DNA of 42,237 nt, taken from Betaproteobacteria bacterium. GTDB taxonomy: Bacteria; Pseudomonadota; Gammaproteobacteria; Burkholderiales; Casimicrobiaceae. Made by a program: the position numbers and the translations under genes. Where the stretch lies: the NCBI GenBank assembly GCA_027492485.1, contig JAPUER010000067.1:1-42237 (forward strand), written 5' to 3'. The notes below the pieces were generated by a model. The model did no database searches. It was given only the letters and a program-made list of their open reading frames with translations, and was not told where the DNA came from. This document shows, piece after piece, positions 9,340-41,386 of this stretch (its first letter is position 1; each line of letters begins with the position of its first letter).

Positions 9340-11535
9340 ATGAAGCTAAAGTTAGGTAAGGTCTTCAAGGGCAAAGGCTCGGCGCCGGTAGCCGACATAC
9401 CTACTGTTGTCGCTGCGCCACTGGCCGGTGACACAGGCATGGCAAGCGCCTACGATCCGACCCGTGCAGTGTCGGTGGTGGAGCAACTGCGGGCTGCCGC
9501 CCGCGGCGGCAAGGCGGTTCGACAACTGCCGCTGATTGGCCATTTGTCAACCGCGAAGCAGTTCCAATACCTTGCGGTCGCGCTGACAATCAGCTTCGTG
9601 CTCATGCTCATCCTTTTCGGTCTGTATGCAATCGAAGCGCGCAAAAATGGCGCGCAAAAAGAAGCGGCAACCGAGATGCAAATGCTCGCCCAACGTCTGG
9701 CGCGTGGCGGCGCGCAGTCCGAAATGGGCGGCGCGGCCGGCTTTGAAGTATTGCAGTCCAGCCGTGAACAGTTTCGCAACAACCTGAAAGCGCTTTCCTC
9801 CGGCGGTGAGTTTCGCGGCGTAACCGTGAGCGAACCGCAATCGGATGCGGTGCGCGCGGCGATGACGGAGCTTGAAAAGCGCTGGGCACTGGTTGACGGC
9901 AAGGTCGACGAACTGGTCGAGGCCCGAGGCATTCTTACGTCGCTGTCGCAGGCAGTCAGCAACGTGAACCAGGGTAACCAGGGTTTGCTTGAGCTGGCGG
10001 AGCAACTGGCAACACAACTCACATCCGGGAGTGGTCGTGAAAACGCGCTCGCCAACAACCTTGTCATGCTGACGCAGCGAATTGCCAAGAACGCCAATGC
10101 GCTTGTGGGCGATGAAGTTGATTCCGACGTGGCTTTCTTGCTCGGCAAGGATACGGCGACGTTCCGCGATATCGTGAATGGCCTCCTGCAGGGTAGTGAT
10201 GCATTGCGAGTCAGTGCCATACGCGATGGCGAGGCCCGGCAAACGCTCACTGAACTGGGTGCGCGCTTCCAGGAGACGGAAAAACGCCTGGTCGAAGTGT
10301 TGCGGGCCATGCCGCGACTGCTCGCCGGCAAACAGGCGGCCAAGGTAATTACCGTGGAGGCCGAACCACTGATGGCCGGCGCCAAGAATCTCTCGAACGC
10401 TTACGAAGGGGCGGGCAATACGGCCAACTTCGCGTTGTACTTCGCGGCCGTGCTAGGCGTGCTCTCCTTGTTGCTGGGTGCAGCGCTCGGGTACTTGTTC
10501 CTTAACGAAGCGCGCGTTCGCGCCGCCGAGAACGAACGTGAAAACCAGCGTAACCAGGAAGCCATTCTGCGATTGCTCAACGAAATGGGTACGCTCGCCG
10601 ACGGGGACTTGACCGTCAAGGCGAGCGTTACGGAAGACGTGACCGGCGCGATTGCGGACTCAATCAACTTCACTGTCGATGAGTTGCGCAAGGTAGTGTC
10701 TGACATTAACGCGACGACAGGCGAAGTTGCCGGCGCCACTCAGGCAGCGCAAGCCATCTCGCAACGACTTTATCAAGCATCGCAACGGCAATCCGGCGAA
10801 ATTCAGCGATCCAGTGCGCTTGTCTTGCAGATGGCGCAGTCGATTAACGAAGTGTCGGCGTCCGCGACGCAGGGCGCGAAAGTGGCGGAGCAATCGCTTA
10901 GCGTGGCGGAGAAGGGGTCGCTCGCGGTGCACAACCAGATCGCCGGCATGAACGAAATACGCGCGCAAATCCAGGAAAGCTCCAAGCGCATCAAGCGCCT
11001 CGGCGAAAGCTCGCAGGAGATCGGCGAAATCGTGGAGCTGATCTCCGACATTACCGAACAGACGAACGTGCTGGCGCTTAACGCCGCCATTCAGGCGGCA
11101 TCGGCCGGCGAAGCGGGCCGGGGCTTTACGGTGGTTGCGGAAGAAGTGCAGCGCCTCGCGGAGCGGTCTGCCGAGGCGACCAAACAGATTGAAGCGCTGG
11201 TGCGCGCCATTCAGTCCGATACGCAGGACGCCGTTAACGCTATGGAAAAGACGACTCAGGGCGTGGTCGAAGGAACACGCTTGTCCGACGCCGCCGGTCA
11301 AGCGTTGTCGGAAATCAGCCGTGTGTCGCGCGACCTGGCGGGGCTTGTGGGCAACATTTCGGCACAGACGCAAACTCAATCCGCATCGGTGTCGGAAGTA
11401 ACCCGCGGCATGCAAGACATTTTGGCCGTGACCGAGGAAACCTCGCGCGGCACCCAGCAAACCAACGTATCTATTGAAGAACTGGGCCGGCTGGCGCAAA
11501 CCCTGCGTAGTTCCGTGGCCGGCTTCAAGGTGTAA
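9340..11535 (+). CDS. pilJ: type IV pilus chemoreceptor PilJ
   Basis: A 731-aa methyl-accepting chemotaxis-like protein. An N-terminal cytoplasmic stretch precedes a membrane helix at about 75-97. A long helical, probably periplasmic region (about 98-365) with PilJ-type repeats follows, then a second membrane helix (about 365-390), a HAMP region and a cytoplasmic signalling domain. The hairpin tip is [21 protein letters not shown] at about 575-595, followed by [13 protein letters not shown]. It should sense pilus-surface state and control ChpA. It ends 20 nt before chpA, and no methyltransferase gene (pilK) lies between them. Confidence 0.93.
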
Positions 11536-11555: not shown

Positions 11556-14500
11556 GTGGCAATTGACATTCCGCTCGAGCTCGACAGCGGCCCCATCACG
11601 TGGGTAAAGGCGGAGATCGATAGCGCGTTGTACCGTGCGCTGGAGAACATCGACAAGTTGCGCAGCGCCCCAACGCCCGAGTTGCGTGGGGCCGTGCGCT
11701 CGGATTTGCATCAGGTTGCCGGCGCCTTCGAATTGGTCGGAATCGAAGGCCTCGCGGTGCTCGTGCAGGAGTTCGAGCGGCACTTCGGCAACGACGTCGA
11801 ATCGACGCCGAAAGAGGCGCTGGATCTGGTTGACCGCGGGTGTCGACGACTTCTGTCTCATCTGAAGGAAATGGCCAGTGGTTCGCCACCGGTGCCACTT
11901 CGTTTTTTCCCCGAGTACCTGGCGCTAGGCAGGTTGCACAACGCCAAGTACGGTCCCGCCGACCTCTTTTTTCCGGATTTGTCGCGTCGCCCTGCGCGCG
12001 CTCAGAGCGGAGAGCCGCCGGAACCGTCACGGATGCCGGCTTTCCTGCTGCGCCAGCGTCGCGATTTCCAGCAGGGTTTGCTGCAATGGCTGCGCGGTAG
12101 CGAGGCGGGGCTTGATCAAATGCGTCGGGTCATCGCGGACATTGAGGCCGCTTATCCGCTACCCGCGCAACGTTCGTTCTGGTGGACGGCACATGCCCTG
12201 CTGGTCGCCACCCAGTCGGGATTGGTAGAGCCATCGACTGCGCTTAAGCAACTGCTTGCGCGCATCGACTTGCAAGTACGCCGCTTTGTGGAGGGTTCCA
12301 CGCGCGTCGCCGATCGCCTGCGTCGGGAAGTGCTCTATCACGTTGCACGCGCTCGCAATGGCAATTCGCACGTCGATGAAGTCAAGAACCTGTATGAACT
12401 CGACGTCTTGGTGCCGAAACGGGTACGGCGCGAAATCGATGTGGTCGCCTTGCAACCGGCGATCAACGCGCTTACCGCCATCGTTGGCCGCTGCAAGGAC
12501 GCATGGACCAGCCTGAATGCCGGTCGCGGCAACGCGCTTGCCAAGCTGCGCGAAGCGACTGGTGAATTGCCGGCCGCGTGCGACGCGTTGCACATGCCCG
12601 AGTTCTCCAATCTCGGCCGGGGCATCGCCAACGCTGCAACGTCGGTCAGTGAAGGCAAGACGATCGGAGACGACCTTTCCATCGAATTCGCGACCAGTCT
12701 GATTCTGATCGAAACTGCGCTCGATCATATTGCGGCGTTGCCCTCGTCGTTCCGGACGCAAGTCGATCGCGCGCTGCAGCGGCTGCACTACGCGACGACC
12801 AAGGCGCCGATCCCGATCGAATTGAGAGCCGAAAACGAGGACAATTCGCTTACCCGTCTTGCCCAGGAACGGCAAACGATCTCGCAGGTTGCGAAGGAAA
12901 TTCGCGCCAACATGCGTCTCGTCGAACAGGCGCTGGACGCAGTATTTCGCGACCGCAATGCAAGCGAAGAACTCAAGCCCCTGCCGGCGCTTCTTGGGCA
13001 GGTTTCCGGCGCGATGCGGATGCTTGGATGGAACGATGCCAACGAGCTGCTGACCAAGACGTCGAATCGCCTGATTGACGCCGTGCGTAACCAGTCCGAG
13101 CTGAGTGCGCTGGACATCGATTCGCTAGCCGATGTATTGGCGGGACTCAGCTTCTACATTGACGTGCGTGAGCGTCGTGACCGCGATGCCGACGAGATTC
13201 TCGCGGGACTGAAACGCCGCTTGCTGGGTGATGGCGCGGGCAATGCCGACGCCGGAGAAGATGACAGCGTCGAGGCATCCCTGGCGGAACGGCAGCGCAT
13301 GTTGCGTCCGCTCGCTCGCGCCATCGGCGACCAGCCAGTGCAGTCGGATCTGCGCGAAACCTTGCGTTCGACATTGCAAGGTGTTCGACAGGATGCCGAG
13401 TTGCTTTCCGATCCCGATCTGTCGCATGCCTCCAGCGAAGCGTTGCGTCTGCTCGAAAGCCACGACACTCAGTCCTCGGCGCTAAGCGCCGCCGTCGCCG
13501 CGGTCGTTGGCGGCAGCGCGGAAGTGCCGCCGACGTCGGCGGAAACCTTCCGGCTGGTGGAATCGCAGCCGGAGGAACGCGACAGTGCACTGCTCGATAT
13601 TTTCGTCGAAGAAGCGACCGACGTTGTGCAAGCGGTCAGAATCAAACACATCGACTTGCAGGCGCAACATGGACGCCGCGATGTGCTAGTAGACATTCGT
13701 CGCGCCTTTCACACGCTCAAGGGTAGCGGTCGCATGGTCGGACAGGCGGATCTGGCCGAGGTGGCGTGGCGCGTGGAGCGCGTTCTCAATGCCACACTGG
13801 AAGAAGAACGACCCGCGACCGAGGCCGAATTGCGACTGATCGGTGCGGCATCGCAAGCGTTCACGGACTGGATCGACACGTTGCGCGACCAACGGGCAGT
13901 CAGCGTTGACGTGTCGGCACTTGACGACCTCATCGCGCAGTGTACTCACAAGCCGCTTTCCGCGGCAGCGACGACACTTGCGTCGGAGATGCGGTTGGCG
14001 GCGACGTCGCCGTCCGATGCAACCACCGGCGTTGCCGCGACACCTTCGGCCGGCTCGGACACCGTGCTCGGCTCGACGCGGACGGAGCCTCTGCACGACA
14101 TAGTGTTGCCACTTGTCGAGGCGACCTCGGAGCCGGTTGTCAATCTTCTACCGACGCTGCATCTTGCAAAGCCGATGGTCGCTCCCGACCGTGCCGATGC
14201 GCCGGCGCACGATTTTCCCGAAGACGACCTGAATGTCCTTGGCGTAACGGTGTCGCGCGCGCTGTTCTCCATTTTGACGGACGAGACGCGCGTACATTTG
14301 CAGACACTCGAGTACGAGTTGACGCTGATGCAGTTCGATACCGCGTTGCTGCCAAGCGACGCAATGGTGCGGGCCAGTCACACCCTGTGCGGGATTCACC
14401 GGACGGCCGGATTCCTCGATGTCGGCGATTTTGCCGGCTTGCTTGAAGGCGCGTTGATGGCGGTTCGCCGCGCCGGACGTTCGCCGCAATCGGTAACCAC

Positions 14501-17500
14501 ATTCGCGTCGGCGATCCAGTGTTTGCGCACGGCCACATTGCGGCTGCAGGCCCAATCCCGCGTGTCGCCCGAGGAAGAGGCCGATCAGGCGCAGACGCGA
14601 TCACAGCTGCAAGCATTGATTGCCGAGACGGGCAGTCGTGACCTCGGTGTCGAGGTCGAGTTGATCGAACAGACGCACGCGGAAGAGCAGGCGCTCGCCA
14701 GTACGGTGCATGCTGTCGCGGTAGCGGTGCCGAGTCAGGCGCCGGCAAGTCCGCTACCGGCTCTGACTACGGAGCCGGTAGCGACGGGTGACGCCGATGT
14801 GGTCGTGCGCATTGAGTCGTCGCATGCGTTTGTGGCGCCGGAAGCCATCGCGCCGGATGTACCGGCGCCCACAGAGGCGGCACTGTCGCAATTCATGCCC
14901 GACGCGGCGACGTTGCTCACCGGCGTTGCCGCCGCAGCGGCGACAGCGGCTGCCGTTGCGGCCGTGTCACCGATCGCCCCGACAGCGCCGCCCGGGCCCG
15001 ATTCGTCGGACGTCTTGCCGACAACGGACACCGCAGCACCGGTGGTCGCATCGGCAGGCGCATTCGTTTCGACTCCGGCGGCGACCGGCGTCAGTCTGCG
15101 GGTTGCGACACCATCGCTGTCGGTTTCGAATACGGCGCACGAGCAACGACCAATCACCACGCCCGCGCGCGGTGCTCCCAAAGTGGCGACAGATCCGCTG
15201 CTGGACATTCGCGACGATATCGACGAGCAGGTCTTGCCGATCTTCCTGGAGGAAGCCCAGGAGCTCTATCCGCGCGCAAGCGAGCAGCTGATCGGCTGGC
15301 GTGATAGCCCGCAGGATGGCAGTTTTTCCGACGGCCTCAAGCGAACCCTGCATACCCTCAAGGGTAGTGCGCGCATGGCCGGTGCGATGCGGCTGGGCGA
15401 GCTTGCGCACAATTTCGAAACGCGACTGGTCGACGTTGCCGGTGTGCCGGCGGCATCGGTGTTCGACGACTTCGACGAGTATCTTGACGATATCGCCTAT
15501 TTGCTGGAACGCCTGACGCGGGGCGAAAAAGATGTCGTTTTGCCGCGCTACCTGCCGCAAGCGGGCGACATGGCCTCGGGCCCCGCGGAGGTCATTTCAG
15601 TTGAGCCGTCTGGCGTCGCTGAAGCAGCGGTGTTCCCGGTCGCCGCCACCACGGCAGAGGCGGCACCTGCGATTGCCGCAGCGCCGTCGGTCGCCGAAAT
15701 TGCACGGCGTCTTGCCGTCCAGCCTGCGGTCGCGGCGCCGGTAGCTGCTGCGGCGCCTGACACCGCCGCCGCTTTCCTCCGGGTCCGCAGCGATGCCGTG
15801 GAGCAGCTTGCCGATGAGTCGGGCGAAATTTCGATCGCGCGATCGCGAATCGAGGCGGAGATGCGCAGCCTCAAAGGCGGGCTGCTGGATCTCACCGCGT
15901 CGGTAGTCCGTTTGCGCGGTCAGCTGCGCGAGATCGAAATTCAGGGCGAGTCGCAGATCCAGTCGCGACTGGATCAGGAGTCGCAATTCGATCCGCTGGA
16001 GTTCGATCGTTACACGCGATTCCAGGAGCTAACCCGCGGTCTCGCCGAAGGCGTAAACGACGTTGCGACGGTGCAGCAGAGTTTGCTCAAAAATCTGGCC
16101 GATGCCGAAAACGCCCTGTCGACGCAGACGCGCCTGTCGCGCTCAGTGCAGTTGCGTTTGCAGACGCTGCGCACGGTGCCGTTCACCAATGTGTCTGACC
16201 GGCTCTATCGCACGCTCCGGCAGACCGCGAAGGATCTCAAGAAGCGCGCCAACCTCGATATTCGCGGCGGACGCATCGAAGTCGACCGCAGCGTGCTGGA
16301 ACGCCTGACGCCGGTGCTTGAGCATCTGGTGCGCAATGCGCTGGCACACGGCATCGAGAGCGAACAGATTCGGCGAGATCGCGGCAAACCGGACATCGGC
16401 GAGATCGCACTGACGGTGCGCCAGCAGGGCAACGAGGTCGCGATCTCGCTCGCCGATGACGGTGGCGGCATCCCACTGGACAAGGTGCGCGAGCGTGCCG
16501 TCGCCCAGGACTTGATCGGTGCCGGCGACGCGGTCAGCGATTCGCAGCTGCTTGAGTTCATCTTCCAGCCGGGCTTTACCACGGCCGATGTGGTGACCGC
16601 CGTGGCCGGACGTGGCATCGGCATGGACGTTGTCCGCAACGAGGTCACGGCGCTCGGCGGTCGCGTGGAAGCGCACACCACCACTGGTGTCGGTTCGACG
16701 TTCACGGTGTCGGTCCCGTTGACGCTTGCGGTGACGCAGGTGTTGCTGGTTGGGGTCGGCAAATCGGTGTTCGGAATCCCATCGTCGATCATCGATCAGG
16801 TGCGGCAGATTCCGACTCGCGAGCGCGTTGCTGCTGCGGCGACAGGCGTGTTGCAGCACGGGGGGCAACCGATTGTCTATCGCTCGCTCGGCACGCTGAC
16901 GCGCGTGTCGCACGACACCACCGATCAGCGCACGGCGCCGGTCATGGTGTTGCGTTCCGGCGATCTGCTGGCGGCGGTCGGGGTCGATCGCATCATCGGC
17001 AACCAGGAGGTCGTTGCCAAACCCTATGGACCGCAGATGGCGCGGGTACCCGGTTTGGCCGGGTTGACGGTGCTGGCCGACGGGACCATCACGCTGCTGT
17101 TGAATCCGATCAACCTGCTGCTCACCCAGGAGGCCGACGCCGCGCGCCGTTCACAACCGGTCGTAGCGCCGACACCCGCTACGCTGTTGCCGTCGACCGC
17201 CGTCATGGTTGTCGCGCCGTCAGTTGCGGGCACCCTTGCCGTTGCCACCGCCCCCACGCCTGCAAGCGAACCGGCGGCGCCGGCGGACGATCATGTTGCG
17301 CTGTCGCCTCCCGCGGCGGCCGAGGATCATGCATCCGCGATGGAGCAACCCGTGGCGATCGCACCCAGCACACCGCCGCCAGTTGTACCGCCGGCGGCGG
17401 CGTCAGAACCGCGCGTTCCGCTGGTGCTGGTGGTTGACGATTCGCTCACCGTGCGCAAGATCACCACCCGCCTGCTGGAGCGCGAAGGCTATCGCGCGCT

Positions 17501-17786
17501 GACGGCGAAGGACGGTCTCGACGCGCTGCAGGTGCTCGCCGACGCCAATCCGGACGTCATCCTGCTCGACATCGAAATGCCGCGCATGGATGGCTTCGAG
17601 TTCACCAAGACGATCAAGGCCGACGACCGGCAGAGCAATATCCCGATCATCATGATCACCTCGCGCACGGCGGAAAAACACCGCAGTCACGCGATGGAAC
17701 TGGGCGTCAATGAGTATCTTGGCAAACCGTACCAGGACGATCAACTGCTGGGCCTGATCGTCAAGTACGCGGGCAAGCCGGCATAA
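11556..17786 (+). CDS. chpA: hybrid chemotaxis histidine kinase ChpA (PilL)
   Basis: A 2076-aa multidomain kinase, the core of the Pil-Chp pathway controlling twitching motility. Phosphotransfer-like sites are H52 (LHQVAGA), H719 (FHTLKGSGRMVG), H942 (SHTLCGIHRTAGF) and H1266 (LHTLKGSARMAG). A further HPt-like site has Gln at the phosphosite position (Q482, GQVSGAMRMLG). A CheA-type catalytic core follows: RNALAHG (N1594), DDGGGIPL (D1634) and GRGIGMDVV. A CheW-like domain covers roughly 1725-1865. A C-terminal receiver has D1961-D1962 and phospho-acceptor D2005 (LLDIEMPRMDG). Ala/Pro/Val-rich linkers join the modules. It starts with GTG. The stop lies 29 nt from the convergent RNase P RNA gene. 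Confidence 0.95.
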   Translation: MAIDIPLELDSGPITWVKAEIDSALYRALENIDKLRSAPTPELRGAVRSDLHQVAGAFELVGIEGLAVLVQEFERHFGNDVESTPKEALDLVDRGCRRLLSHLKEMASGSPPVPLRFFPEYLALGRLHNAKYGPADLFFPDLSRRPARAQSGEPPEPSRMPAFLLRQRRDFQQGLLQWLRGSEAGLDQMRRVIADIEAAYPLPAQRSFWWTAHALLVATQSGLVEPSTALKQLLARIDLQVRRFVEGSTRVADRLRREVLYHVARARNGNSHVDEVKNLYELDVLVPKRVRREIDVVALQPAINALTAIVGRCKDAWTSLNAGRGNALAKLREATGELPAACDALHMPEFSNLGRGIANAATSVSEGKTIGDDLSIEFATSLILIETALDHIAALPSSFRTQVDRALQRLHYATTKAPIPIELRAENEDNSLTRLAQERQTISQVAKEIRANMRLVEQALDAVFRDRNASEELKPLPALLGQVSGAMRMLGWNDANELLTKTSNRLIDAVRNQSELSALDIDSLADVLAGLSFYIDVRERRDRDADEILAGLKRRLLGDGAGNADAGEDDSVEASLAERQRMLRPLARAIGDQPVQSDLRETLRSTLQGVRQDAELLSDPDLSHASSEALRLLESHDTQSSALSAAVAAVVGGSAEVPPTSAETFRLVESQPEERDSALLDIFVEEATDVVQAVRIKHIDLQAQHGRRDVLVDIRRAFHTLKGSGRMVGQADLAEVAWRVERVLNATLEEERPATEAELRLIGAASQAFTDWIDTLRDQRAVSVDVSALDDLIAQCTHKPLSAAATTLASEMRLAATSPSDATTGVAATPSAGSDTVLGSTRTEPLHDIVLPLVEATSEPVVNLLPTLHLAKPMVAPDRADAPAHDFPEDDLNVLGVTVSRALFSILTDETRVHLQTLEYELTLMQFDTALLPSDAMVRASHTLCGIHRTAGFLDVGDFAGLLEGALMAVRRAGRSPQSVTTFASAIQCLRTATLRLQAQSRVSPEEEADQAQTRSQLQALIAETGSRDLGVEVELIEQTHAEEQALASTVHAVAVAVPSQAPASPLPALTTEPVATGDADVVVRIESSHAFVAPEAIAPDVPAPTEAALSQFMPDAATLLTGVAAAAATAAAVAAVSPIAPTAPPGPDSSDVLPTTDTAAPVVASAGAFVSTPAATGVSLRVATPSLSVSNTAHEQRPITTPARGAPKVATDPLLDIRDDIDEQVLPIFLEEAQELYPRASEQLIGWRDSPQDGSFSDGLKRTLHTLKGSARMAGAMRLGELAHNFETRLVDVAGVPAASVFDDFDEYLDDIAYLLERLTRGEKDVVLPRYLPQAGDMASGPAEVISVEPSGVAEAAVFPVAATTAEAAPAIAAAPSVAEIARRLAVQPAVAAPVAAAAPDTAAAFLRVRSDAVEQLADESGEISIARSRIEAEMRSLKGGLLDLTASVVRLRGQLREIEIQGESQIQSRLDQESQFDPLEFDRYTRFQELTRGLAEGVNDVATVQQSLLKNLADAENALSTQTRLSRSVQLRLQTLRTVPFTNVSDRLYRTLRQTAKDLKKRANLDIRGGRIEVDRSVLERLTPVLEHLVRNALAHGIESEQIRRDRGKPDIGEIALTVRQQGNEVAISLADDGGGIPLDKVRERAVAQDLIGAGDAVSDSQLLEFIFQPGFTTADVVTAVAGRGIGMDVVRNEVTALGGRVEAHTTTGVGSTFTVSVPLTLAVTQVLLVGVGKSVFGIPSSIIDQVRQIPTRERVAAAATGVLQHGGQPIVYRSLGTLTRVSHDTTDQRTAPVMVLRSGDLLAAVGVDRIIGNQEVVAKPYGPQMARVPGLAGLTVLADGTITLLLNPINLLLTQEADAARRSQPVVAPTPATLLPSTAVMVVAPSVAGTLAVATAPTPASEPAAPADDHVALSPPAAAEDHASAMEQPVAIAPSTPPPVVPPAAASEPRVPLVLVVDDSLTVRKITTRLLEREGYRALTAKDGLDALQVLADANPDVILLDIEMPRMDGFEFTKTIKADDRQSNIPIIMITSRTAEKHRSHAMELGVNEYLGKPYQDDQLLGLIVKYAGKPA

Positions 17787-17815
17787 CAACCGGCAGGCGG
17801 GCGCAAAGCGAAGAT

Positions 17816-18163
17816 GGAAGCCGGCCTGTAGGCCGGGTTCTGTCGGCCGCCGGTTACCCGAACCGCCGCAGCAGTCATTCCTCTAGGCCCACCGTTGCCG
17901 ATGGGCTCAAGCTACCTACCCGCACGCTCCGACGAGCCGCCTTGGGTGAGCGATTGCTCGCTCACGGCGCATGCCTATTTGGTATTGCTCCGGGTAGAGG
18001 TTGCCGCGTTTCACCGTAACTGAATACGCTCGTCTCTGTGGCCCTGGTCCTCGCCTTATGCCTTGCGGTTTTCGGCGGACGGCCGTTAGCCGTTACCCTG
18101 CTCTATGGAGCCCGGACCTTCCTCCCGTTGATTGCTCAACCAGCGACTGCCCAGCCGGCTTCC
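17816..18163 (-). ncRNA. rnpB: RNase P RNA, bacterial class A
   Basis: The ribozyme of RNase P, which matures tRNA 5' ends. On the minus strand the 5' end GGAAGCCGGC (18163 downwards) pairs with GCCGGCTTCC at the 3' end to form P1. Between them lie GGCTGGGCAGTCGC, GAGGAAGGTCCGGGCTCC (P4 5' strand region), CCGGAGCAATACCAAATAGG, GCGGGTAGGTAGCTTGAGCC, CCTAGAGGAATGACTG and GACAGAACCCGGCC (P4 3' strand), the universal class A landmarks in order. The length of 348 nt is typical. A -10-like GATAAT sits at the right distance upstream. The gene is convergent with chpA. The P4 helix carries a compensated substitution relative to E. coli. Confidence 0.96.
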
Positions 18164-18175: not shown

Positions 18176-18229
18176 CCGCATCGCCGCGCTGCGACGGTCC
18201 TGGCGGGAACGCCGGCGTAGATGAATCAA

Positions 18230-18346
18230 CTTTTATGCAAGAGGCCCATCTGCATTGGGCTAACGTCGCGAAATAATCAAAAGTCGACTTACGCAAAAAT
18301 ATCGATTCTGCCCATACTAAATAGGCCTTTCAGCAAAAAGCTGTTA
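18230..18346 (-). repeat. structured intergenic element, copy A (117 nt)
   Basis: Minus-strand element starting TAACAGCTTTT five nt after the puuD stop codon and ending AAAAG. It shares ACAGCTTTT, a GTCGACTTT block, TTAGCCCAATG and terminal AAAAG with copy B at 40361-40478, at the same spacing apart from one single-base indel. Stems: CTTTT/AAAAG closing, GCCTAT/ATGGGC with a TTAGT loop, and AATCGA/TTGATT, each with different bases from the matching stem of copy B. It lies between puuD and the rnpB promoter. I do not recognise a named family. Confidence 0.65.
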
Positions 18347-18351
18347 GCCGC

Positions 18352-19539
18352 TCAGTCGGCCTTGGCGCCGGCCTTGACCCAGGCCGCGAGCTTTTGCCGC
18401 TCGTCTTCGGTCATCTGCGTCGAATTGGCCATCGGCATCACGCGCGCCACCACCGCCTGCTGATACATCGCCTGCGCGTTTTTCAGGATCAGCTCGGGTG
18501 TGTGCAACTGGATGTTCTTCGAGGTCACCTGCGCGTTGTGGCAGAGCTGGCAGCGCTGCTCGACGATCGCCCGAATTTCGGCGAACTTCGGCGCCGCCGC
18601 GGCGGCGGGCGCAGCCGGCTGCGGCGCCGGCGCGATCCAGACGGCGACGGCCGCCAGCAGTGCGGCGCCGATCGCGAAAAATTTGTAGTCGCGCTTGCCT
18701 TTGTGCTTGAGCACGAAGAACTGGCGGATCAGCGCGCCGGCCAGCATGATGAGCACCAGCACCAGCCAGTTGTTCGGCGCGCCGTAGGTCATGCTGTAGT
18801 GATTCGACAGCATCGCAAACAGCACCGGCAGCGTGAAATACGTGTTGTGCACGCTGCGCTGCTTGGCGCGCAGCGGGTGGATCGGGTCGGGCTTCTGCCC
18901 GGCCTTCATCGCCGCCACCGTCTTGCGCTGCCCTGGAATGATCACCATCAGCACGTTGGCGCTCATCGCCGTTGCCAGCATCGCGCCGGTGAGCAGAAAG
19001 GCCGCGCGACCGGCGAACAAATGGCAGGCGATGAAGGTGGCCGCCACCACATAGACGAACACCAGCACGCCGACGATCAGGTCGCCGTTCTTGCGCTGGC
19101 CGAACAGCCGGCAGATGCCGTCGTAGACGACCCAGCCCATCACCAGATAGACCAGCGAGGCGACGATCGCCGCGGCCGACGACTGCCACGCAAAGACATT
19201 GTTGTCGATCAGGAAGGTCTGCGCGTTGAACAGGTAGAGCACGACGAACAGCGCGAAACCGCTCATCCACGTCCAGTAACTTTCCCAGTAGAACCAGTGC
19301 AGATGTTCGGGCAGGGCTTTCGGCGCCACCATGTACTTCTGCGGGTTATAGAAACCGCCGCCATGCACCGCCCACAGCTCGCCGTCGACGCCCTTGTCCT
19401 TTAGATCCTGCGCGGTCGGCTTGACCAGACTGTTGTCGAGCCAGACGAAGTAGAACGACGAGCCGATCCACGCGATGCCGGTGATCACGTGCAACCAGCG
19501 CAACAGCAGATTCAGCCAGTCGCCGATGTAACTTTCCAC
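18352..19539 (-). CDS. puuD: urate hydroxylase PuuD, membrane-bound with C-terminal cytochrome c domain
   Basis: A 395-aa inner-membrane protein oxidising urate to 5-hydroxyisourate with electrons passed to a c-type heme. The first ~300 residues carry about eight hydrophobic helices, starting with LLLRWLHVITGIAWIGSSFY. The C-terminal cytochrome c domain has one heme motif, CQLCH (C330, C333, H334), and a downstream Met-containing segment (VVARVMPMANSTQMT) typical of the sixth heme ligand region. It starts with GTG at 19539, 3 nt after the uraH stop, as last gene of a four-gene operon with HIU hydrolase and OHCU decarboxylase. That context fixes the function. Confidence 0.92.
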   Translation of the reverse strand: MESYIGDWLNLLLRWLHVITGIAWIGSSFYFVWLDNSLVKPTAQDLKDKGVDGELWAVHGGGFYNPQKYMVAPKALPEHLHWFYWESYWTWMSGFALFVVLYLFNAQTFLIDNNVFAWQSSAAAIVASLVYLVMGWVVYDGICRLFGQRKNGDLIVGVLVFVYVVAATFIACHLFAGRAAFLLTGAMLATAMSANVLMVIIPGQRKTVAAMKAGQKPDPIHPLRAKQRSVHNTYFTLPVLFAMLSNHYSMTYGAPNNWLVLVLIMLAGALIRQFFVLKHKGKRDYKFFAIGAALLAAVAVWIAPAPQPAAPAAAAAPKFAEIRAIVEQRCQLCHNAQVTSKNIQLHTPELILKNAQAMYQQAVVARVMPMANSTQMTEDERQKLAAWVKAGAKAD

Positions 19540-20455: not shown

Positions 20456-21946
20456 CTAGTGCGAGTCTGCCTGCTTCGCAGCGGCAATGGCTGCGCCGGC
20501 ATCTTCGCGTGCGCCATTGAAGAAGAGATTCAGCAGCACCGCGGCCAGCGACGACAGCAGGATGCCCGACTCGATCAGCGGATGAATGTCGTGCGGCATC
20601 CACTGCTTGAAGTTCGGCGCGACCAGCGGAATCATGCCGATGCCGATCGACACCGCTACGATGAACGCGTTGTAGCGGTTGCTCTTGAAATCGACGTTGG
20701 CCAGGATGCGGATGCCGGTGGCGGCCACCATGCCGAACATCACCAGACCGGCGCCGCCCAGCACGACCGTCGGCAGCGATTCGACCAGTGCCGCCAGTTT
20801 CGGCAGCAGACCGAGCAGGATCAGGATGATGCCGCCGGCGACGCAGACAAAGCGCGAGCGCACGCCGGTTACAGCCACCAGCCCGACGTTCTGCGAGAAG
20901 CTGGTGTACGGGAACGTATTGAAGATGCCGCCGAGCAGGGTGCCCAGGCCATCGGTGCGCAAGCCGGCGGTCAGCGCCTTGCGGTCGACGGCGCGCCCGG
21001 TCATTTCGCCGAGCGCGAGGAACATCCCGGTGGATTCGATCATCACCACGATCATCACCAACGTCATGGTCAGGATCAAGATGGGGTCGAAGGTCGGAGT
21101 CGCGATTTCAAACGGCAGCACCATGTCGAACCAGTCGGCTTTGGCCACCTTGTCGAAATTCATCTTGCCAGCAAGCGTTGCCACCACGCCGCCAATGACG
21201 ATGCCGATGAGCACCGCCACGTTGGCAAGAAAGCCCTTGGCGAAACGTGCGATGAGCAGAATCGACACCAGCACCAACGTGGCAATGCCGACACCGGCCA
21301 GTTCGGCGTATTTCGGGTTGGGTACGCTCGGAGCGAGGCTGACGCCTTTCGGCATCGCGGGCAAGGCAGAACCGGGCGCCGATGCCGCCGCGGTGACGTC
21401 CGCCAGCCACTTGGCGTGGTCCGGATTGACGATCGACGGCGCCGTCGGCCCGATCGGTGTGCCGAATATCCAGTTGATACCGATGCGCATCAGGCTGATG
21501 CCGATCACCGCGATGATGGTGCCGGTGACCACCGGCGGGAAGAATCGCAGCATGCGACTGACCAGCGGCGCGATCAGGATGCTGACGACGCCGGCACCGA
21601 TGATGGCACCAAAGATGGCGCCCGCACCGGCAACGCCCGGATTGCTGCCTGCCATTGCCACCATCGGGGCGACCGAGGCAAACGTCACCCCCATCATCAC
21701 CGGCAGACGGATGCCAAACCATTGCGAGGCGCCCAGGGACTGGATCAGTGTGACCAGGCCGCAGCAGAACAAGTCGGCCTGGATCAGCATCGTGATCTGC
21801 TCGGGCGTCAGCTTGAGCGCCCGTCCGACAATCAATGGCACCGCAACGGCGCCGGCATACATCACCAGCACATGTTGCAGGCCCAATGCGCCAAGCCGGG
21901 GCAGCGGCAACTTCTCGTCTACCGGATGAACAGCAGCATCGGACAT
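20456..21946 (-). CDS. NCS2-family purine (urate/xanthine) permease
   Basis: A 496-aa polytopic membrane transporter of the nucleobase-ascorbate (NCS2) family, probably a proton symporter for urate or xanthine. About 12-14 hydrophobic segments are visible, and the NAT signature QNVGLVAVTGVRSR is intact. GLQHVLVMYAGAVAVPLIVG near the N-terminus is typical of the PucK/UacT branch. The start MSDAAVHP at 21946 has a strong AAGGAGGG ribosome binding site 5-6 nt upstream. The frame reads nine codons further but without such a site. As first gene of the operon with uraD, uraH and puuD, urate is the likeliest substrate, though specificity cannot be read from sequence. Confidence 0.9.
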   Translation of the reverse strand: MSDAAVHPVDEKLPLPRLGALGLQHVLVMYAGAVAVPLIVGRALKLTPEQITMLIQADLFCCGLVTLIQSLGASQWFGIRLPVMMGVTFASVAPMVAMAGSNPGVAGAGAIFGAIIGAGVVSILIAPLVSRMLRFFPPVVTGTIIAVIGISLMRIGINWIFGTPIGPTAPSIVNPDHAKWLADVTAAASAPGSALPAMPKGVSLAPSVPNPKYAELAGVGIATLVLVSILLIARFAKGFLANVAVLIGIVIGGVVATLAGKMNFDKVAKADWFDMVLPFEIATPTFDPILILTMTLVMIVVMIESTGMFLALGEMTGRAVDRKALTAGLRTDGLGTLLGGIFNTFPYTSFSQNVGLVAVTGVRSRFVCVAGGIILILLGLLPKLAALVESLPTVVLGGAGLVMFGMVAATGIRILANVDFKSNRYNAFIVAVSIGIGMIPLVAPNFKQWMPHDIHPLIESGILLSSLAAVLLNLFFNGAREDAGAAIAAAKQADSH

Positions 21947-22204
21947 CGTTTCCCTCCTTGCGATGACATTCAAAGATGACCTGGTGCAGGCGACGCAATA
22001 ACCGCGCCAATCGTTCCCGGGTCATCCACCGCGACCGACGCTCCTCCGCCGGTTGCGCGCATGCTGGTTGAACCGCCCCTGTCTCGTCGTGCGCAAGCAG
22101 TGGGTAACGGGTTCAGCCAGGACGTCGCAGTCTAAAGTCGGCCCTCGGTCTTTGCCATAAGCGGCCATCTATGAGGCTCATGGCGGCCTCCGGTCGATGC
22201 TTTG

Positions 22205-22981
22205 CTATCGATAGCGCGACATCCAGCCGAGACCAGCCTCCGTCGTGCTCCGCGGCCGGTACTCGCAGCCGATCCAGCCGTCGTAGCCCAGCGCGTCGAT
22301 ACGCCCGAGCACCCACTCATAGTTGATTTCGCCGGTGCCCGGTTCGTGGCGACCGGGGTTGTCGGCGATCTGGATGTGGCCGATACGCCCGATCTGGGCG
22401 CTGAGCGTGGCGCCGAGTTCGCCCTCCATGCGCTGGGCATGGTAGACGTCGTACTGCAGGAACAGGTTGTCCGAGCCCACCTCGTCCATGATGGAGAGCG
22501 CGTCGGCGGTGCGGTTGACGAAGTAACCGGGGATGTCGAAGCAGTTGATCGGCTCCGTTACCAGCCGGATTCCTTCGCGCTGGCACTCGGTCGCCGCGTA
22601 GCGCAGATTAGCCACCATCGTGGCGCGGGCAGCGACCGGATCGATATTCTCGGGGCGCCGTCCGGCGAGGCAATTGAGACGTTCGCAGCCCAGCGCGACG
22701 GCGTAACCAATCGCCTTCGCCACGCCATCGCGAAACTCCGCCTCCCGTCCCGGCAGGCAGGCCAAGCCCCGCTCGCCGTTGTCCCAGTCACCCGCCGGCA
22801 GGTTAAACAGCGCCTGCGTCAGGCCGTTGTTGCGCAGCGCTGCCGCCAGTTCGCGGACGTCGTAGGGATAGGGCGCCATGTACTCGACCGCACGAAATCC
22901 CGCGCGGGCCGACGCTTCCAGACGTTCCATGAAGGGCAGCTCCGGAAACAGGAAGGACACATTGGCGGAGAATCTGGGCAT
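22205..22981 (-). CDS. hyi: hydroxypyruvate isomerase
   Basis: A 258-aa TIM-barrel enzyme interconverting hydroxypyruvate and tartronate semialdehyde. This carries glyoxylate carbon from allantoin towards glycerate. It begins MPRFSANVSFLFPELPF and matches E. coli Hyi in length. Metal-site segments include TEPINCFDIPGYF, LQYDVYHAQRMEG, IGHIQIADNPGRHEPG and GEINYEW, then GYDGWIGCEY. The gene is divergent from puuE across 141 nt and lies upstream of the permease operon with a 258-nt gap, so it may be transcribed separately. I saw no gcl or glxR homologue in the window. Confidence 0.93.
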   Translation of the reverse strand: MPRFSANVSFLFPELPFMERLEASARAGFRAVEYMAPYPYDVRELAAALRNNGLTQALFNLPAGDWDNGERGLACLPGREAEFRDGVAKAIGYAVALGCERLNCLAGRRPENIDPVAARATMVANLRYAATECQREGIRLVTEPINCFDIPGYFVNRTADALSIMDEVGSDNLFLQYDVYHAQRMEGELGATLSAQIGRIGHIQIADNPGRHEPGTGEINYEWVLGRIDALGYDGWIGCEYRPRSTTEAGLGWMSRYR

Positions 22982-23122
22982 GGCTCGATAGGGGGCACCC
23001 GAACGCGGCAAGTATGCCAAGAATCGGGCGCGTGCCGGTGCACAATAGGCCCTATAACCGCGAGACGCTATGGGCGGGCCGCCGCGCTCGCTAGACTGCG
23101 CGGCTCGCCCGTTTGCATCATC

Positions 23123-24055
23123 ATGACCTGGACTTCCGACTATCCCCGCGATCTCACCGGCTATGGCCGCACGCCGCCGCACGCGCAATGGCCCATGCGG
23201 GCGAAGATCGCCGTCAACTTCGTGCTGAACTACGAGGAGGGCGCCGAGAACTGCATCCTGCATGGCGATCCTGCGTCGGAGACGTTTCTCTCGGAGATTG
23301 CGTTTGCGCAGGCCTTTGAGGCGCGCCACCTGTCGATGGAATCGATGTACGAGTACGGCTCGCGGGTGGGCGTCTGGCGATTGCTGCGTGAATTTGCCAA
23401 ACGCAACCTGCCGCTCACCGTCTTCGGTGTCGCCACGGCACTGGATCGCAATCGCGAGGCGACGGCCGCATTCTGCGAACTGGGCCATGAAATCGCGTCG
23501 CACGGCCTGCGCTGGATTCACCATCAACATATGGGTGAAGATCGGGAACGGCAGCACATCGCGCGGGCAACTACGCTGATCCGCGAGTTGACCGATGGCC
23601 AGTGGCCGTTCGGCTGGTACACCGGCCGCGATGGCCCCAACACCAAGCGCCTGGTGCTGGAACACGGTGGTTTCGAGTACGACAGCGACTACTACGGCGA
23701 CGATCTGCCGTTCTATCTGCCGGTGACAATGAGCGACGGTTCGATCCGGCGGCAGCTGATCGTGCCTTACACGCTGGACGCCAACGACATGAAGTTTTCG
23801 TCGGCGGCGGGTTTCGTCAACGGCGAGGATTTTGCACGCTACCTGATCGACACTTTCGACGTTCTCTACGCCGAAGGGGAGGAAGCGCCGAAGATGATGA
23901 GTATCGGCATGCATTGCCGCTTGCTTGGCAAGCCCGGTCGCCTGCGTGGCCTGCAGAAATTTCTCGACCACGTTGAAAAACATGACCGCGTATGGGTGAC
24001 GCGGCGCATCGACATCGCCCGCCATTGGCGCGCGGTGCATCCCGATGCGGTGTAG
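23123..24055 (+). CDS. puuE: allantoinase PuuE (polysaccharide-deacetylase fold)
   Basis: A 310-aa metal-independent type allantoinase hydrolysing allantoin to allantoate. It begins DYPRDLTGYGRTPPHAQWP, a diagnostic PuuE N-terminus. NFVLNYEEGAE, EYGSRVGVWRLLREF, GHEIASHGLRW, WYTGRDGPNTKRL and MSIGMHCRLLGKPGR follow, all family landmarks. It is unrelated to the amidohydrolase-type AllB. The ATG at 23123 is chosen because the reading frame upstream is only the antisense of hyi. The last two bases of the stop codon lie inside a REP-like palindrome. Confidence 0.95.
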   Translation: MTWTSDYPRDLTGYGRTPPHAQWPMRAKIAVNFVLNYEEGAENCILHGDPASETFLSEIAFAQAFEARHLSMESMYEYGSRVGVWRLLREFAKRNLPLTVFGVATALDRNREATAAFCELGHEIASHGLRWIHHQHMGEDRERQHIARATTLIRELTDGQWPFGWYTGRDGPNTKRLVLEHGGFEYDSDYYGDDLPFYLPVTMSDGSIRRQLIVPYTLDANDMKFSSAAGFVNGEDFARYLIDTFDVLYAEGEEAPKMMSIGMHCRLLGKPGRLRGLQKFLDHVEKHDRVWVTRRIDIARHWRAVHPDAV

Positions 24056-39508: not shown

Positions 39509-40363
39509 ATGAAGCCGCAATTCGTCCTCGCTCTCTCCTGCCCCGACCGGCCCGGCATCGTGCATCGGGTGTCCGGTTTTCTGGTCGAACAGGGCGCCAA
39601 CATTCTCGAAGCCGCGCAGTTTGACGACGTCGGCACCGGCCGCTTCTTCATGCGCGTGCAGTTCGAGCTCGGCGATGCCGCGCTGACGGCCGCCGTGCTG
39701 CACGAGCGCTTCGCCACGATCGCCGGCGAGCTGGCCATGCAGGCCACCTTTCATCCGCTGGCGAAGCGGCCGCGCACGCTGATCCTGGTGTCCCGGCAGG
39801 GCCACTGCCTGAACGATCTGCTGTTCCGCCATCGCAGTGGACAGTTGCCGGTCGACATCCCGGCCATCGTCAGCAACCACATGGACTACTACCAGCTGGC
39901 GGCGAGCTACAACATCCCGTTCTTCCATCTGCCGGTCAGCGCCGAGACCAAGCCGGTGCAGGAGGCGAAGCTGCGCGAGATCATCGCCGACAAGCAGATC
40001 GACCTCGTCGTGCTCGCCCGCTACATGCAGGTGCTGTCGCCGGCGCTGTGCGAGCATCTCGCCGGCCGCGCGATCAATATCCATCACTCGTTCCTGCCCA
40101 GCTTCAAGGGCGCGCGGCCGTACTTTCAGGCGCACGAGCGCGGCGTCAAACTGATCGGCGCCACGGCGCACTACGTGACGACCGACCTCGACGAAGGCCC
40201 GATCATCGAGCAGGACGTCGCCCGCGTGAACCACTCGATGAGCGCTGAGGCGCTGACCGCGGTCGGCAGCGATCTCGAATGCCGCGCCCTGGCCCGGGCA
40301 GTGAAGTGGCACGCCGAGCATCGGGTGCTGCTCAACGGCAACAAGACGGTGGTGTTCAACTGA
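39509..40363 (+). CDS. purU: formyltetrahydrofolate deformylase
   Basis: A 284-aa enzyme releasing formate from 10-formyltetrahydrofolate, balancing one-carbon pools and supplying formate for purine synthesis. The N-terminal ACT domain (about 1-80) starts LALSCPDRPGIVHRVSGFL. The catalytic domain has SNHMDYYQLAASYNIPF, LARYMQVLSP and INIHHSFLPSFKGARPY with H192-H193, then GATAHYVTTDLDEGPIIEQD. Its TGA stop is the first three bases of structured element copy B. Confidence 0.96.
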   Translation: MKPQFVLALSCPDRPGIVHRVSGFLVEQGANILEAAQFDDVGTGRFFMRVQFELGDAALTAAVLHERFATIAGELAMQATFHPLAKRPRTLILVSRQGHCLNDLLFRHRSGQLPVDIPAIVSNHMDYYQLAASYNIPFFHLPVSAETKPVQEAKLREIIADKQIDLVVLARYMQVLSPALCEHLAGRAINIHHSFLPSFKGARPYFQAHERGVKLIGATAHYVTTDLDEGPIIEQDVARVNHSMSAEALTAVGSDLECRALARAVKWHAEHRVLLNGNKTVVFN

Positions 40364-40478
40364 CAGCTTTTCGGTAGAACGCCCATTGGCAATGGGCGGG
40401 GCGGCCAATTCGGCCAATTGTCGACTTTCGCCAAAACAGGGCGCTTAGCCCAATGTGGACGCCGCTTTCACCGAAAAG
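40361..40478 (+). repeat. structured intergenic element, copy B (118 nt)
   Basis: It begins at the purU stop (TGACAGCTTTT) and ends AAAAG. CTTTTCGGT (40367-40375) pairs perfectly with ACCGAAAAG (40470-40478). Inside, CGCCCATT/AATGGGCG (40380-40398) is a perfect 8-bp hairpin. GGCG (40400-40403) pairs with CGCC (40429-40432), just before the second half. GTCGACTTT and TTAGCCCAATG match copy A at equal spacing, while the stems differ in sequence but remain paired. Function unknown. Confidence 0.7.
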
Positions 40479-40534
40479 ATGCTAACCCTGCGGCCGTCGC
40501 GACAAAGCCCCGGCGCGCCCGACTGCCCAGCGCC

Positions 40535-41386
40535 TCAGACCGCCTGCGGCCCTGCCAGCAGCGTCTTGCGGTATTTGTTCAGGTCGCCCAGCGATTCCAG
40601 GCTCTTGCCGAACAGGTTCGACAGGTTGTGCAGGATCATCTTCACGACCTTGCCTTCCCATTCCTTGTCGAACTTGATCTGCACGTCGAGCCAGCGTTCC
40701 AGCCATTCCGGGTCGGGCAGCTTGCTTTGCACGGTGTCGTTCGGGAACAGCGCCTGATTGACGTGCAGGTTGGTCGGGTGCATCGGCTTGCCCGAGCGGC
40801 CGCTGGCCGCCATCAGGAAGCCGATCTTGGCAAACCCGGCCTTCACTTCGTTGACCTTGTCGGCGGCGGCACGGCCGATCGCCTGCTTCAGGTATTTCAG
40901 GTAGGCGCCGGCGTGACGGGCTTCGTCCTTCGCGATCAGGCCGTAGATGTGCTTGATCAGCGGCTCGGTGTGCCACTCGGCAGCGCGGCGGTACCAGTGA
41001 TTGAGCCGCACTTCGCCGCAGAAATGCATCATCAGCGTTTCCAGCGCCGGCGCTGGGTCGAACTCGAAGCGCACGTTGTCGAGCTCGGCCTCGGTCGGCA
41101 CCAGCTCGGGGCGGAAGCGGCGCAGGTATTCCATCAGCACCAGCGAATGCTTCTGCTCCTCGTAGAACCACACCGACATGAACGCCGAAAAATCGCTGTC
41201 GCCGCGGTTGTCGCGCAGGAACATCTCGGTCGCCGGCAGCGCCGACCATTCGGTGATGGCGTTCAGCTTGATCGTCTGCGCCTGCTCGTCGGAGAGTTTG
41301 CCGGCATCGAAGCTGTCCCAGGGCACGTCGGTCGCCATGTTCCAGCGCACGCGCTCGAGATCCTTGAACAGTTCGGTGTAAAGCAT
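40535..41386 (-). CDS. ferritin-like diiron protein (acyl-ACP desaturase-like)
   Basis: A 283-aa helical protein with a full six-ligand diiron pattern. E46, E77 and H80 (EEQKH), E125 and then E155 with H158 (DEARH) are spaced as in the ferritin-like/acyl-ACP desaturase superfamily. It may be an oxygenase or desaturase rather than an iron store, being longer than ferritins. There is no signal peptide or membrane helix. Substrate unknown. It starts MLYTELFKDLERVRW at 41386. A possible -10 (TACAAT, minus strand 41493-41488) lies about 100 nt upstream. The long plus-strand frame opposite it looks antisense. Confidence 0.8.
   Translation of the reverse strand: MLYTELFKDLERVRWNMATDVPWDSFDAGKLSDEQAQTIKLNAITEWSALPATEMFLRDNRGDSDFSAFMSVWFYEEQKHSLVLMEYLRRFRPELVPTEAELDNVRFEFDPAPALETLMMHFCGEVRLNHWYRRAAEWHTEPLIKHIYGLIAKDEARHAGAYLKYLKQAIGRAAADKVNEVKAGFAKIGFLMAASGRSGKPMHPTNLHVNQALFPNDTVQSKLPDPEWLERWLDVQIKFDKEWEGKVVKMILHNLSNLFGKSLESLGDLNKYRKTLLAGPQAV

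Follow-up and report, generated by a model that had tools for sequence, protein, structure and literature searches.

The window, by which we mean the whole 42,237-nucleotide stretch that was analysed, holds two copies of a 124-bp element, one beside purU (copy 1) and the other upstream of rnpB (copy 2). The spacer of copy 1 is bounded by purU, whose stop codon (40361-40363) overlaps the edge of the element, and by a convergent gene at 40535-41386; that of copy 2 runs from a urate-oxidase-domain gene to rnpB, the element lying about 62 bp upstream of the latter. The features are listed below together with the matches of R1, a sequence-only family model built from 75 elements, both window copies among them.

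17813-18162, minus strand: rnpB, the RNase P RNA gene (Rfam RF00010, 215.9 bits), a neighbour used for the orthology test and not part of the element
18224-18347, minus strand: copy 2, the element upstream of rnpB; dyad axis at 18285/18286
18225-18345: R1 match to copy 2, 82.1 bits on the minus strand and 63.4 bits on the plus strand
18283-18288: GTCGAC, dyad centre of copy 2
18352-19539, minus strand: urate-oxidase-domain gene
39509-40363, plus strand: purU, formyltetrahydrofolate deformylase (NCBIfam TIGR00655, 333.7 bits; cut-off 285.95)
40361-40484, plus strand: copy 1, the 124-bp element beside purU; dyad axis at 40422/40423, ends set at ±62 from the family stack
40363-40482, plus strand: R1 match to copy 1, 79.9 bits; 40363-40483 on the minus strand, 69.2 bits
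40364-40371, plus strand: left end block CAGCTTTT of copy 1, outside the search pattern
40394-40397, plus strand: GGGC, left mirror of the inner word of copy 1 (offset -29 to -26), outside the search pattern
40420-40425: GTCGAC, dyad centre of copy 1, from family column counts; this block belonged to the search pattern
40448-40455, plus strand: right inner word GCCCAATG of copy 1 (offset +26 to +33), within the search pattern
40473-40481, plus strand: right end block GAAAAGATG of copy 1, mirroring the left end, outside the search pattern

Some neighbouring genes deserve a remark of their own. The gene at 18352-19539 combines a urate oxidase N-terminal domain (PF06181) with a sub-threshold cytochrome c (CBB3-type) match, and we take it to resemble PuuD-type urate oxidase; a xanthine permease is encoded at 20456-21973. 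At 22205-24040 (minus strand) lies a 611-aa open reading frame with a hydroxypyruvate/2-oxo-tetronate isomerase match in its second half (354-607), where all of its listed NCBIfam matches fall, which may point to a fusion or to a wrongly chosen start. The gene at 11556-17786 (plus strand) encodes a CheA-like hybrid kinase of 2076 aa, in which two Hpt stretches are combined with CheW and receiver domains; it adjoins a methyl-accepting chemotaxis protein gene (9340-11535).

The initial annotation had aligned 40361-40478 (plus) with 18346-18230 (minus). Both copies are present at these positions, with an alignment that extends over about 124 bases, and the four common blocks it named (ACAGCTTTT, GTCGACTTT, TTAGCCCAATG and AAAAG) stand in each copy and keep register but for a single-base indel. 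Its view of a constrained element with conserved blocks was borne out by the R1 scan of the window, which returned only these two copies, each on both strands, at 82.1 and 79.9 bits for the better strand and with the next-best match at E = 3.3; the family is found on both strands because it is dyad-symmetric. We likewise found no described family on the element: at the gathering threshold rnpB was the sole Rfam match in the window, and when four copies were searched permissively against Rfam, admitting E values up to 5, the four matches obtained all lay off the element.

A dyad-symmetric family with species-specific inner words

An exact core pattern, which includes the centre and the right inner block, occurs four times in the genome from which the window comes (G000). 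With up to three mismatches it gave 90 matches, against none for the reversed-pattern control, and there are more in relatives, so that the further copies on which the initial annotation had staked its case do exist. Merging opposite-strand matches that overlap at the palindrome AGTCGACT left 77 distinct elements, and their stack yields a single dyad-symmetric consensus that runs from a GTC/GAC centre (TCGA core) out to ±62. Read from the centre outward in majority letters, one half of this consensus is GACTTT.....aaat...gc..t.aGCCCaat...aatg.gg.TTtc...aAAAAGctg.t. Terminal inverted repeats are present (ends CAGCTTTTT / AAAAAGCTG), as part of a symmetry that takes in the entire element, and beyond ±62 information is near background (0.01-0.16 bits per column from 63 to 74; 54 elements). 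The element is therefore dyad-symmetric, with edges near ±62.

Since the centre and the right inner block were in the search pattern, their frequency in the stack partly reflects selection, whereas the left half and both end blocks lay outside the pattern and the conservation of the left GGGC is independent of it. The three letters of the left GGG stand at a fixed distance from the centre in 60, 69 and 74 of the 77 elements of the ungapped stack. Symmetrised information, in both cases inflated by selection, amounts to 101.7 bits over 124 columns for the 77 pattern-selected elements and to 88.8 bits over ±65 for 54 PWM-selected elements from contiguous stretches.

The PWM scans of contiguous stretches counted strong elements only (score > 15, against a Markov null maximum of -33 or lower). 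In G000 there were 25 in 359 kb (C79), 14 in 174 kb (C58) and 13 in 146 kb (C75), which with the window makes 54 elements in 722 kb, or one per 13 kb; extrapolated, this corresponds to roughly 300 elements per genome. Elsewhere the scans found 31 in 400 kb of G005 and 15 in 200 kb of G013, and G012, scanned with the G000 matrix, showed 8 in 200 kb. Near 52700-52900 of C58, a repeat-like spacer sequence of CTCCCCGGC...GGGGAGG type lies beside an element.

Matrices re-estimated genome by genome largely agree in the TCGA centre and in ends of AAAAGC type and differ from +22 to +43. The inner word is GCCC..T..AATG-like in G000 and G005, CCAAGCCCGTTATGGATGCG in G013, AACGACCGC....CGGTCG.T in G012 and TCGCCCAATT.AAT.GGGC in G007, where n-AA follows the centre in place of CTT; by eye, some of the peaks behind the G007 and G002 matrices resemble coding sequence. 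Palindromic EM without a prior recovered a matching motif in all four genomes of the genus that were tried (G000, G002, G007 and G012; 48-66 bits) and, in the one genome of another genus compared (G017), a 36-bit motif without the features of the element. Inner words specific to the species thus sit inside a constant frame.

Pairing and folding tests

The initial annotation had read the differences between the two copies as compensatory changes in paired stems, and hence the element as a covarying RNA or structured single-stranded DNA. This part of its account did not hold. Across 75 copies its three helices have 60.6% paired cells versus 59.2% after shuffling, a value that 22 of 500 shuffles reached, and RNAalifold predicts 0 pairs; the four inner pairs of helix 1 are unpaired in 44-68% of sequences. 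Five measures of helix pairing were reached by 22, 295, 14, 68 and 17 of 500 shuffles, a marginal excess, so that significant covariation is absent or nearly so and what is left of the claim is a slight excess in this one test. With a mean z of 0.03 for Watson-Crick excess over 61 dyad column pairs, symmetric columns vary independently of each other. Two of the roughly 7,400 column pairs have z above 4 (-54/-27, which stems from one sequence, and -55/-26), neither of them dyad, and two fall below -4. The apparent compensation between the two window copies can be put down to a mirror-symmetric consensus plus chance.

Folding energies lead to the same view. Both window copies fold better than dinucleotide shuffles (z -2.64 and -3.07), as a mirror-symmetric sequence would. 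The 77 copies have a mean MFE of -36.1 versus -30.7 for column-shuffled stacks, and the separate halves are also more stable than their column-shuffled null (-13.2 vs -11.6 and -12.2 vs -11.4). Exchanging left and right parts among elements at 17 cut points nevertheless leaves the mean MFE between -35.5 and -36.6, around the real value, and an element's own halves pair as well as swapped ones (-38.2 vs -37.9, sd 0.6). Because part-swapping costs nothing, we take the folding stability to reflect local composition and symmetry and not the matching of partners. A hairpin within the half, around ±34, shows a weak excess in G000 and G013 and none in G007 and G012 (four species). The RNA or single-stranded DNA reading is largely refuted, and the element is most likely a double-stranded DNA site.

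Placement, spacing and conservation of the sites

In three stretches other than the window, 67 of 71 elements lie in predicted spacers; an earlier and poorer gene calling had left 59 of 77 clear of predicted open reading frames and 18 overlapping them, copy 1 of the window included. All four classes of neighbour-gene orientation are used (-- 20, +- 18, -+ 16, ++ 13), with median distances of 27 bp to gene 3' ends and 96 bp to 5' ends. Convergent spacers make up 18 of the 67 occupied spacers versus 43 of the 327 spacers of 100 bp or more, a comparison that is affected by the element itself lengthening the spacers in which it lies.

The sites are spaced more evenly than chance would have it. Over 75 gaps in four stretches the coefficient of variation is 0.598 versus 0.945 under uniform placement, a value that none of 5000 simulations matched, and gaps below one third of the mean account for 4% versus 27% expected, the smallest being 3.2 kb. 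The same holds against random choice of predicted spacers in three stretches (0/3000 in both versions of the test). On the complete G005 chromosome, 101 positions from the best 150 matches are present in all tenths of the chromosome, with 0 gaps below 5.5 kb versus 11.6 expected (0/5000) and a coefficient of variation of 0.83 versus 0.98 (p 0.029).

We compared positions between species by means of 209 reciprocal best proteins (mean identity 88.9%) that join the G000 stretches C58, C75 and C67 to a stretch of G005. Of 158 orthologous spacers, 15 carry the element in both genomes, none in one only and 143 in neither; the 15/15 agreement refers to this one species pair and to spacers whose two neighbour genes are both conserved and adjacent. 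An earlier, partly overlapping test with looser placement had given 7/7 shared. Sequences were compared for 14 of the 15 shared sites, without the one that is weak in G000. In gapped alignments of these 14 pairs, conserved columns are 0.733 identical versus 0.664 between non-orthologous elements and variable columns 0.404 versus 0.346, and whole-element alignment scores are 23.6 versus 11.0. Without gaps, variable columns show no clear excess (0.327 vs 0.309; for 7 pairs 0.28 vs 0.30). For comparison, identity at fourfold codon sites is 0.631 (0.371 would be expected at saturation), and orthologous spacers that lack the element reach 0.774 when aligned, versus 0.649 for mismatched pairs. These values show common descent and a maintained consensus, and more change in the free columns than at fourfold sites or in other spacers, a pace faster than expected. 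Expressed as similarity above background, unconstrained columns of G000/G005 orthologues keep about 9%, versus about 41% at fourfold sites.

Within G000, no recent near-identical copies were seen among the 77 elements. Over 40 variable columns their mean pairwise identity is 0.315, equal to that of the column-shuffle null, and the most similar pair reaches 0.625 versus a null maximum of 0.60 in ten shuffles. Beyond the edges of 54 elements, no direct-repeat offset stands out that would mark a target-site duplication.

No orthologous spacer of the 158 differs in presence between G000 and G005, yet the site beside purU and the one upstream of rnpB are not constant within the genus. Ten of the 17 genus genomes have an element upstream of rnpB, with the matched parts 58-96 bp away, and three variant forms at this position score weakly (G003, E 3.9e-5; G012, 0.0019; G008, 0.0028). 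At purU the model finds it at 2 of 15 loci, one of the 15 (in G009) having no downstream sequence, and a diverged copy can be made out by eye downstream of purU in G002. Other repeats were noticed at both sites. Upstream of rnpB in G014 (L108), a TGTAGGAGCGG...CCGCTCCTACA-type inverted repeat stands where other genomes have the dyad element; downstream of purU, G011 (L124) and G014 (L123) have other palindromic repeats, of CGTTCGTGGTGAGC and TTCGACAAGCTCA types, and in G011 several such repeats share one spacer.

R1 has matches in all 17 genomes of the genus, eight of which have fewer than 130 among the matches listed (best 150 per genome), and in 1 of 47 family genomes outside it (E = 0.008; stricter filters). 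The 3-mismatch pattern matches 12 of 119 genomes, 10 of them in the genus, G000 included; the other two have one match each, no more than the reversed control (3 matches in all). The exact core pattern hit three stretches among public genome contigs, one being a contig of genus member G006; the other two, in a Tissierellia and a Bacteroidales MAG, differ in their inner gaps (24 and 29, not 16) and were taken for chance. To judge from these matches, and as far as searched, the family appears restricted to one Burkholderiales genus. The two smallest genomes of the genus are G016 (2.6 Mb), with a single marginal match (E = 0.007), and G009 (2.5 Mb), with 24; loss with genome reduction is a possible reason for their few elements. 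Among viral contigs the first pattern had no match, and a looser one gave one partial match (14.7 bits) inside an open reading frame, which we took for chance. Copy 1 had no match among plasmids, nor copy 2 among phages.

A putative chromosome-organising platform, its rivals and known systems

The largely position-conserved and evenly placed sites suggest an unknown chromosome-organising system. We propose, at about even probability, that the roughly 300 dyad-symmetric 124-bp double-stranded DNA sites are putative landing platforms for a symmetric nucleoprotein complex that organises the chromosome. Half-sites that are symmetric and vary independently point to a symmetric protein assembly on double-stranded DNA and suggest a dimeric or paired binder, and the constant offset of the left GGG from the centre argues for one complex. 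The even spacing, together with the indifference to gene orientation, would fit a task at the level of the chromosome. A putative dimeric or paired protein might contact the element at its centre, around ±34 and at its ends, and the sites could serve, for example, as border markers or factor-loading points of topological domains of about 13 kb. More tentatively, and at slightly less than even probability, the family would represent a chromosome-architecture system of a hitherto unknown kind, with about 300 evenly spaced, position-conserved dyad landmarks and a putative symmetric reader, in which the ±34 word and the sites change together so that each species has a code of its own within a fixed frame. 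Several points speak against a platform: the even spacing could record the target immunity of an old transposon, the purU site has been gained or lost across the genus, and, in alignments without gaps, orthologous elements resemble each other in their variable columns scarcely more than non-orthologous ones do.

The first of these leads to the strongest rival, which we nonetheless think unlikely: that the elements are relics of a MITE family whose parent transposon, now extinct, had target immunity, and whose copies stayed put. Immunity would impose a minimum spacing, as seen in the absence of gaps under 3 kb (0/75), and the size, copy number, intergenic placement and mirror symmetry of the elements all fit, as do the variable purU site and the short median distance to gene 3' ends, as if copies had inserted into short spacers. 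Against it, the 54 elements examined for target-site duplication gave no signal, no pair of the 77 copies stands clearly above the column-shuffle null, so that recent copying is not seen, and in orthologues the consensus columns have been held with the other columns nearly saturated; the searches of plasmids with copy 1 and of phages with copy 2 were likewise without a match. The immunity of an extinct transposon could also explain how sites later put to use were initially laid down.

A bidirectional insulator, a terminator or the site of a global transcription factor is, we consider, decidedly improbable. The element's position upstream of rnpB speaks for a transcriptional element, and the prominence of convergent spacers leaves room for a transcription-linked role, but all four gene-orientation classes are in use, a conserved hairpin is lacking in the RNAalifold prediction, and a regulon site would hardly need 124 bp, about 90-100 bits and even spacing.

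Of similarly low standing, and if anything a shade lower, is a specific version of the platform explanation in which the sites are strong topoisomerase (gyrase-type) sites, each a wrapped, centrally cleaved platform of 120-130 bp serving one topological domain. Bacterial supercoil domains are of the order of the observed spacing of about 13 kb, and G007 and G002 show some weak secondary power around 11 bp. The length and symmetry resemble those of the 130-bp E. coli gyrase motif in the passages of PMC6379681 that describe it, but that motif is degenerate with 10.75-bp periodic flanks, and the element is strongly sequence-specific. In its A+T profiles (seven stacks, six species) the peaks fall at 7.5-8 and 9.5 bp and the power at 10.5 bp is low throughout, and gyrase-like helical phasing was rejected since no 10.75-bp periodic flanks were found in them. 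A structured RNA or single-stranded DNA is the least credible explanation, and scarcely so at all, because the better-than-shuffle folding of copies and halves and the slight pairing excesses are outweighed by independent dyad columns, neutral part-swapping, equal pairing of own and exchanged halves and the empty RNAalifold prediction.

The topological domains of bacterial chromosomes measure roughly 10 kb, and a regularly spaced sequence by which they are set is not known to us. If the platform reading is right, a genus with about 300 even, conserved landmarks would make the question of how domains are set directly testable, with the DNA itself usable as bait for the protein. It would also offer, with 17 genomes for study, an example of a joint shift in specificity by hundreds of long sites and, presumably, by their reader. 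In searches of open-access literature we found no description of the element; one may exist elsewhere.

No kind of element known to us fits all of the tested features, and the function is one that we infer. REPs are short stem-loops. PMC2817692 gives often more than 100 copies per genome for REP/BIME and ties REPs to REP-associated transposases, and the relevant part of PMC6379681 reports gyrase cleavage sites to be over-represented in intergenic BIME-2. Our element resembles the REP/BIME of enterobacteria and pseudomonads in its many intergenic copies per genome and differs in its 124 bp, in the want of a convincing covarying stem and in its over-even spacing; a REP/BIME-type hairpin with compensatory changes was not found, the weak excess around ±34 being confined to G000 and G013. 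ERIC, Correia (NEMIS) and similar MITEs are described in part of PMC2229807 as mobile inverted repeats of about 107-155 bp with target duplications and long stem-loops. They share with our element the inverted-repeat design and the size, and differ from it in that the element has no duplication signal, no recent copies among the 77 and positions common to two species. The CIR of Caulobacter and relatives, intergenic repeats of about 110 bp with a conserved internal motif, GANTC, that are conserved between species (PMC2229807), come close in placement, approximate length, inner conserved motif and persistence across species; compared by description alone, they differ in that GANTC is not seen by eye in our consensus, and the CIR passages of that source mention neither even spacing nor full dyad symmetry. 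The E. coli gyrase motif and the Mu strong gyrase site, in the portion of PMC6379681 that covers them, are also centre-symmetric and about 130 bp long, and differ from a sequence-specific element with peaks at 7.5-8 and 9.5 bp in being degenerate and 10.75-bp periodic. For each of REP/BIME, ERIC, Correia and the gyrase motif, at least one defining feature was looked for in our element and not found. The dispersed chromosomal sites bound by organising proteins, namely matS, parS, the Noc and SlmA sites and KOPS, are about 8-20 bp long. Our element differs from them in its 124 bp and is like them in being dispersed across the chromosome, where it displays the chromosome-wide non-random spacing by which we would recognise a chromosome-organising site.
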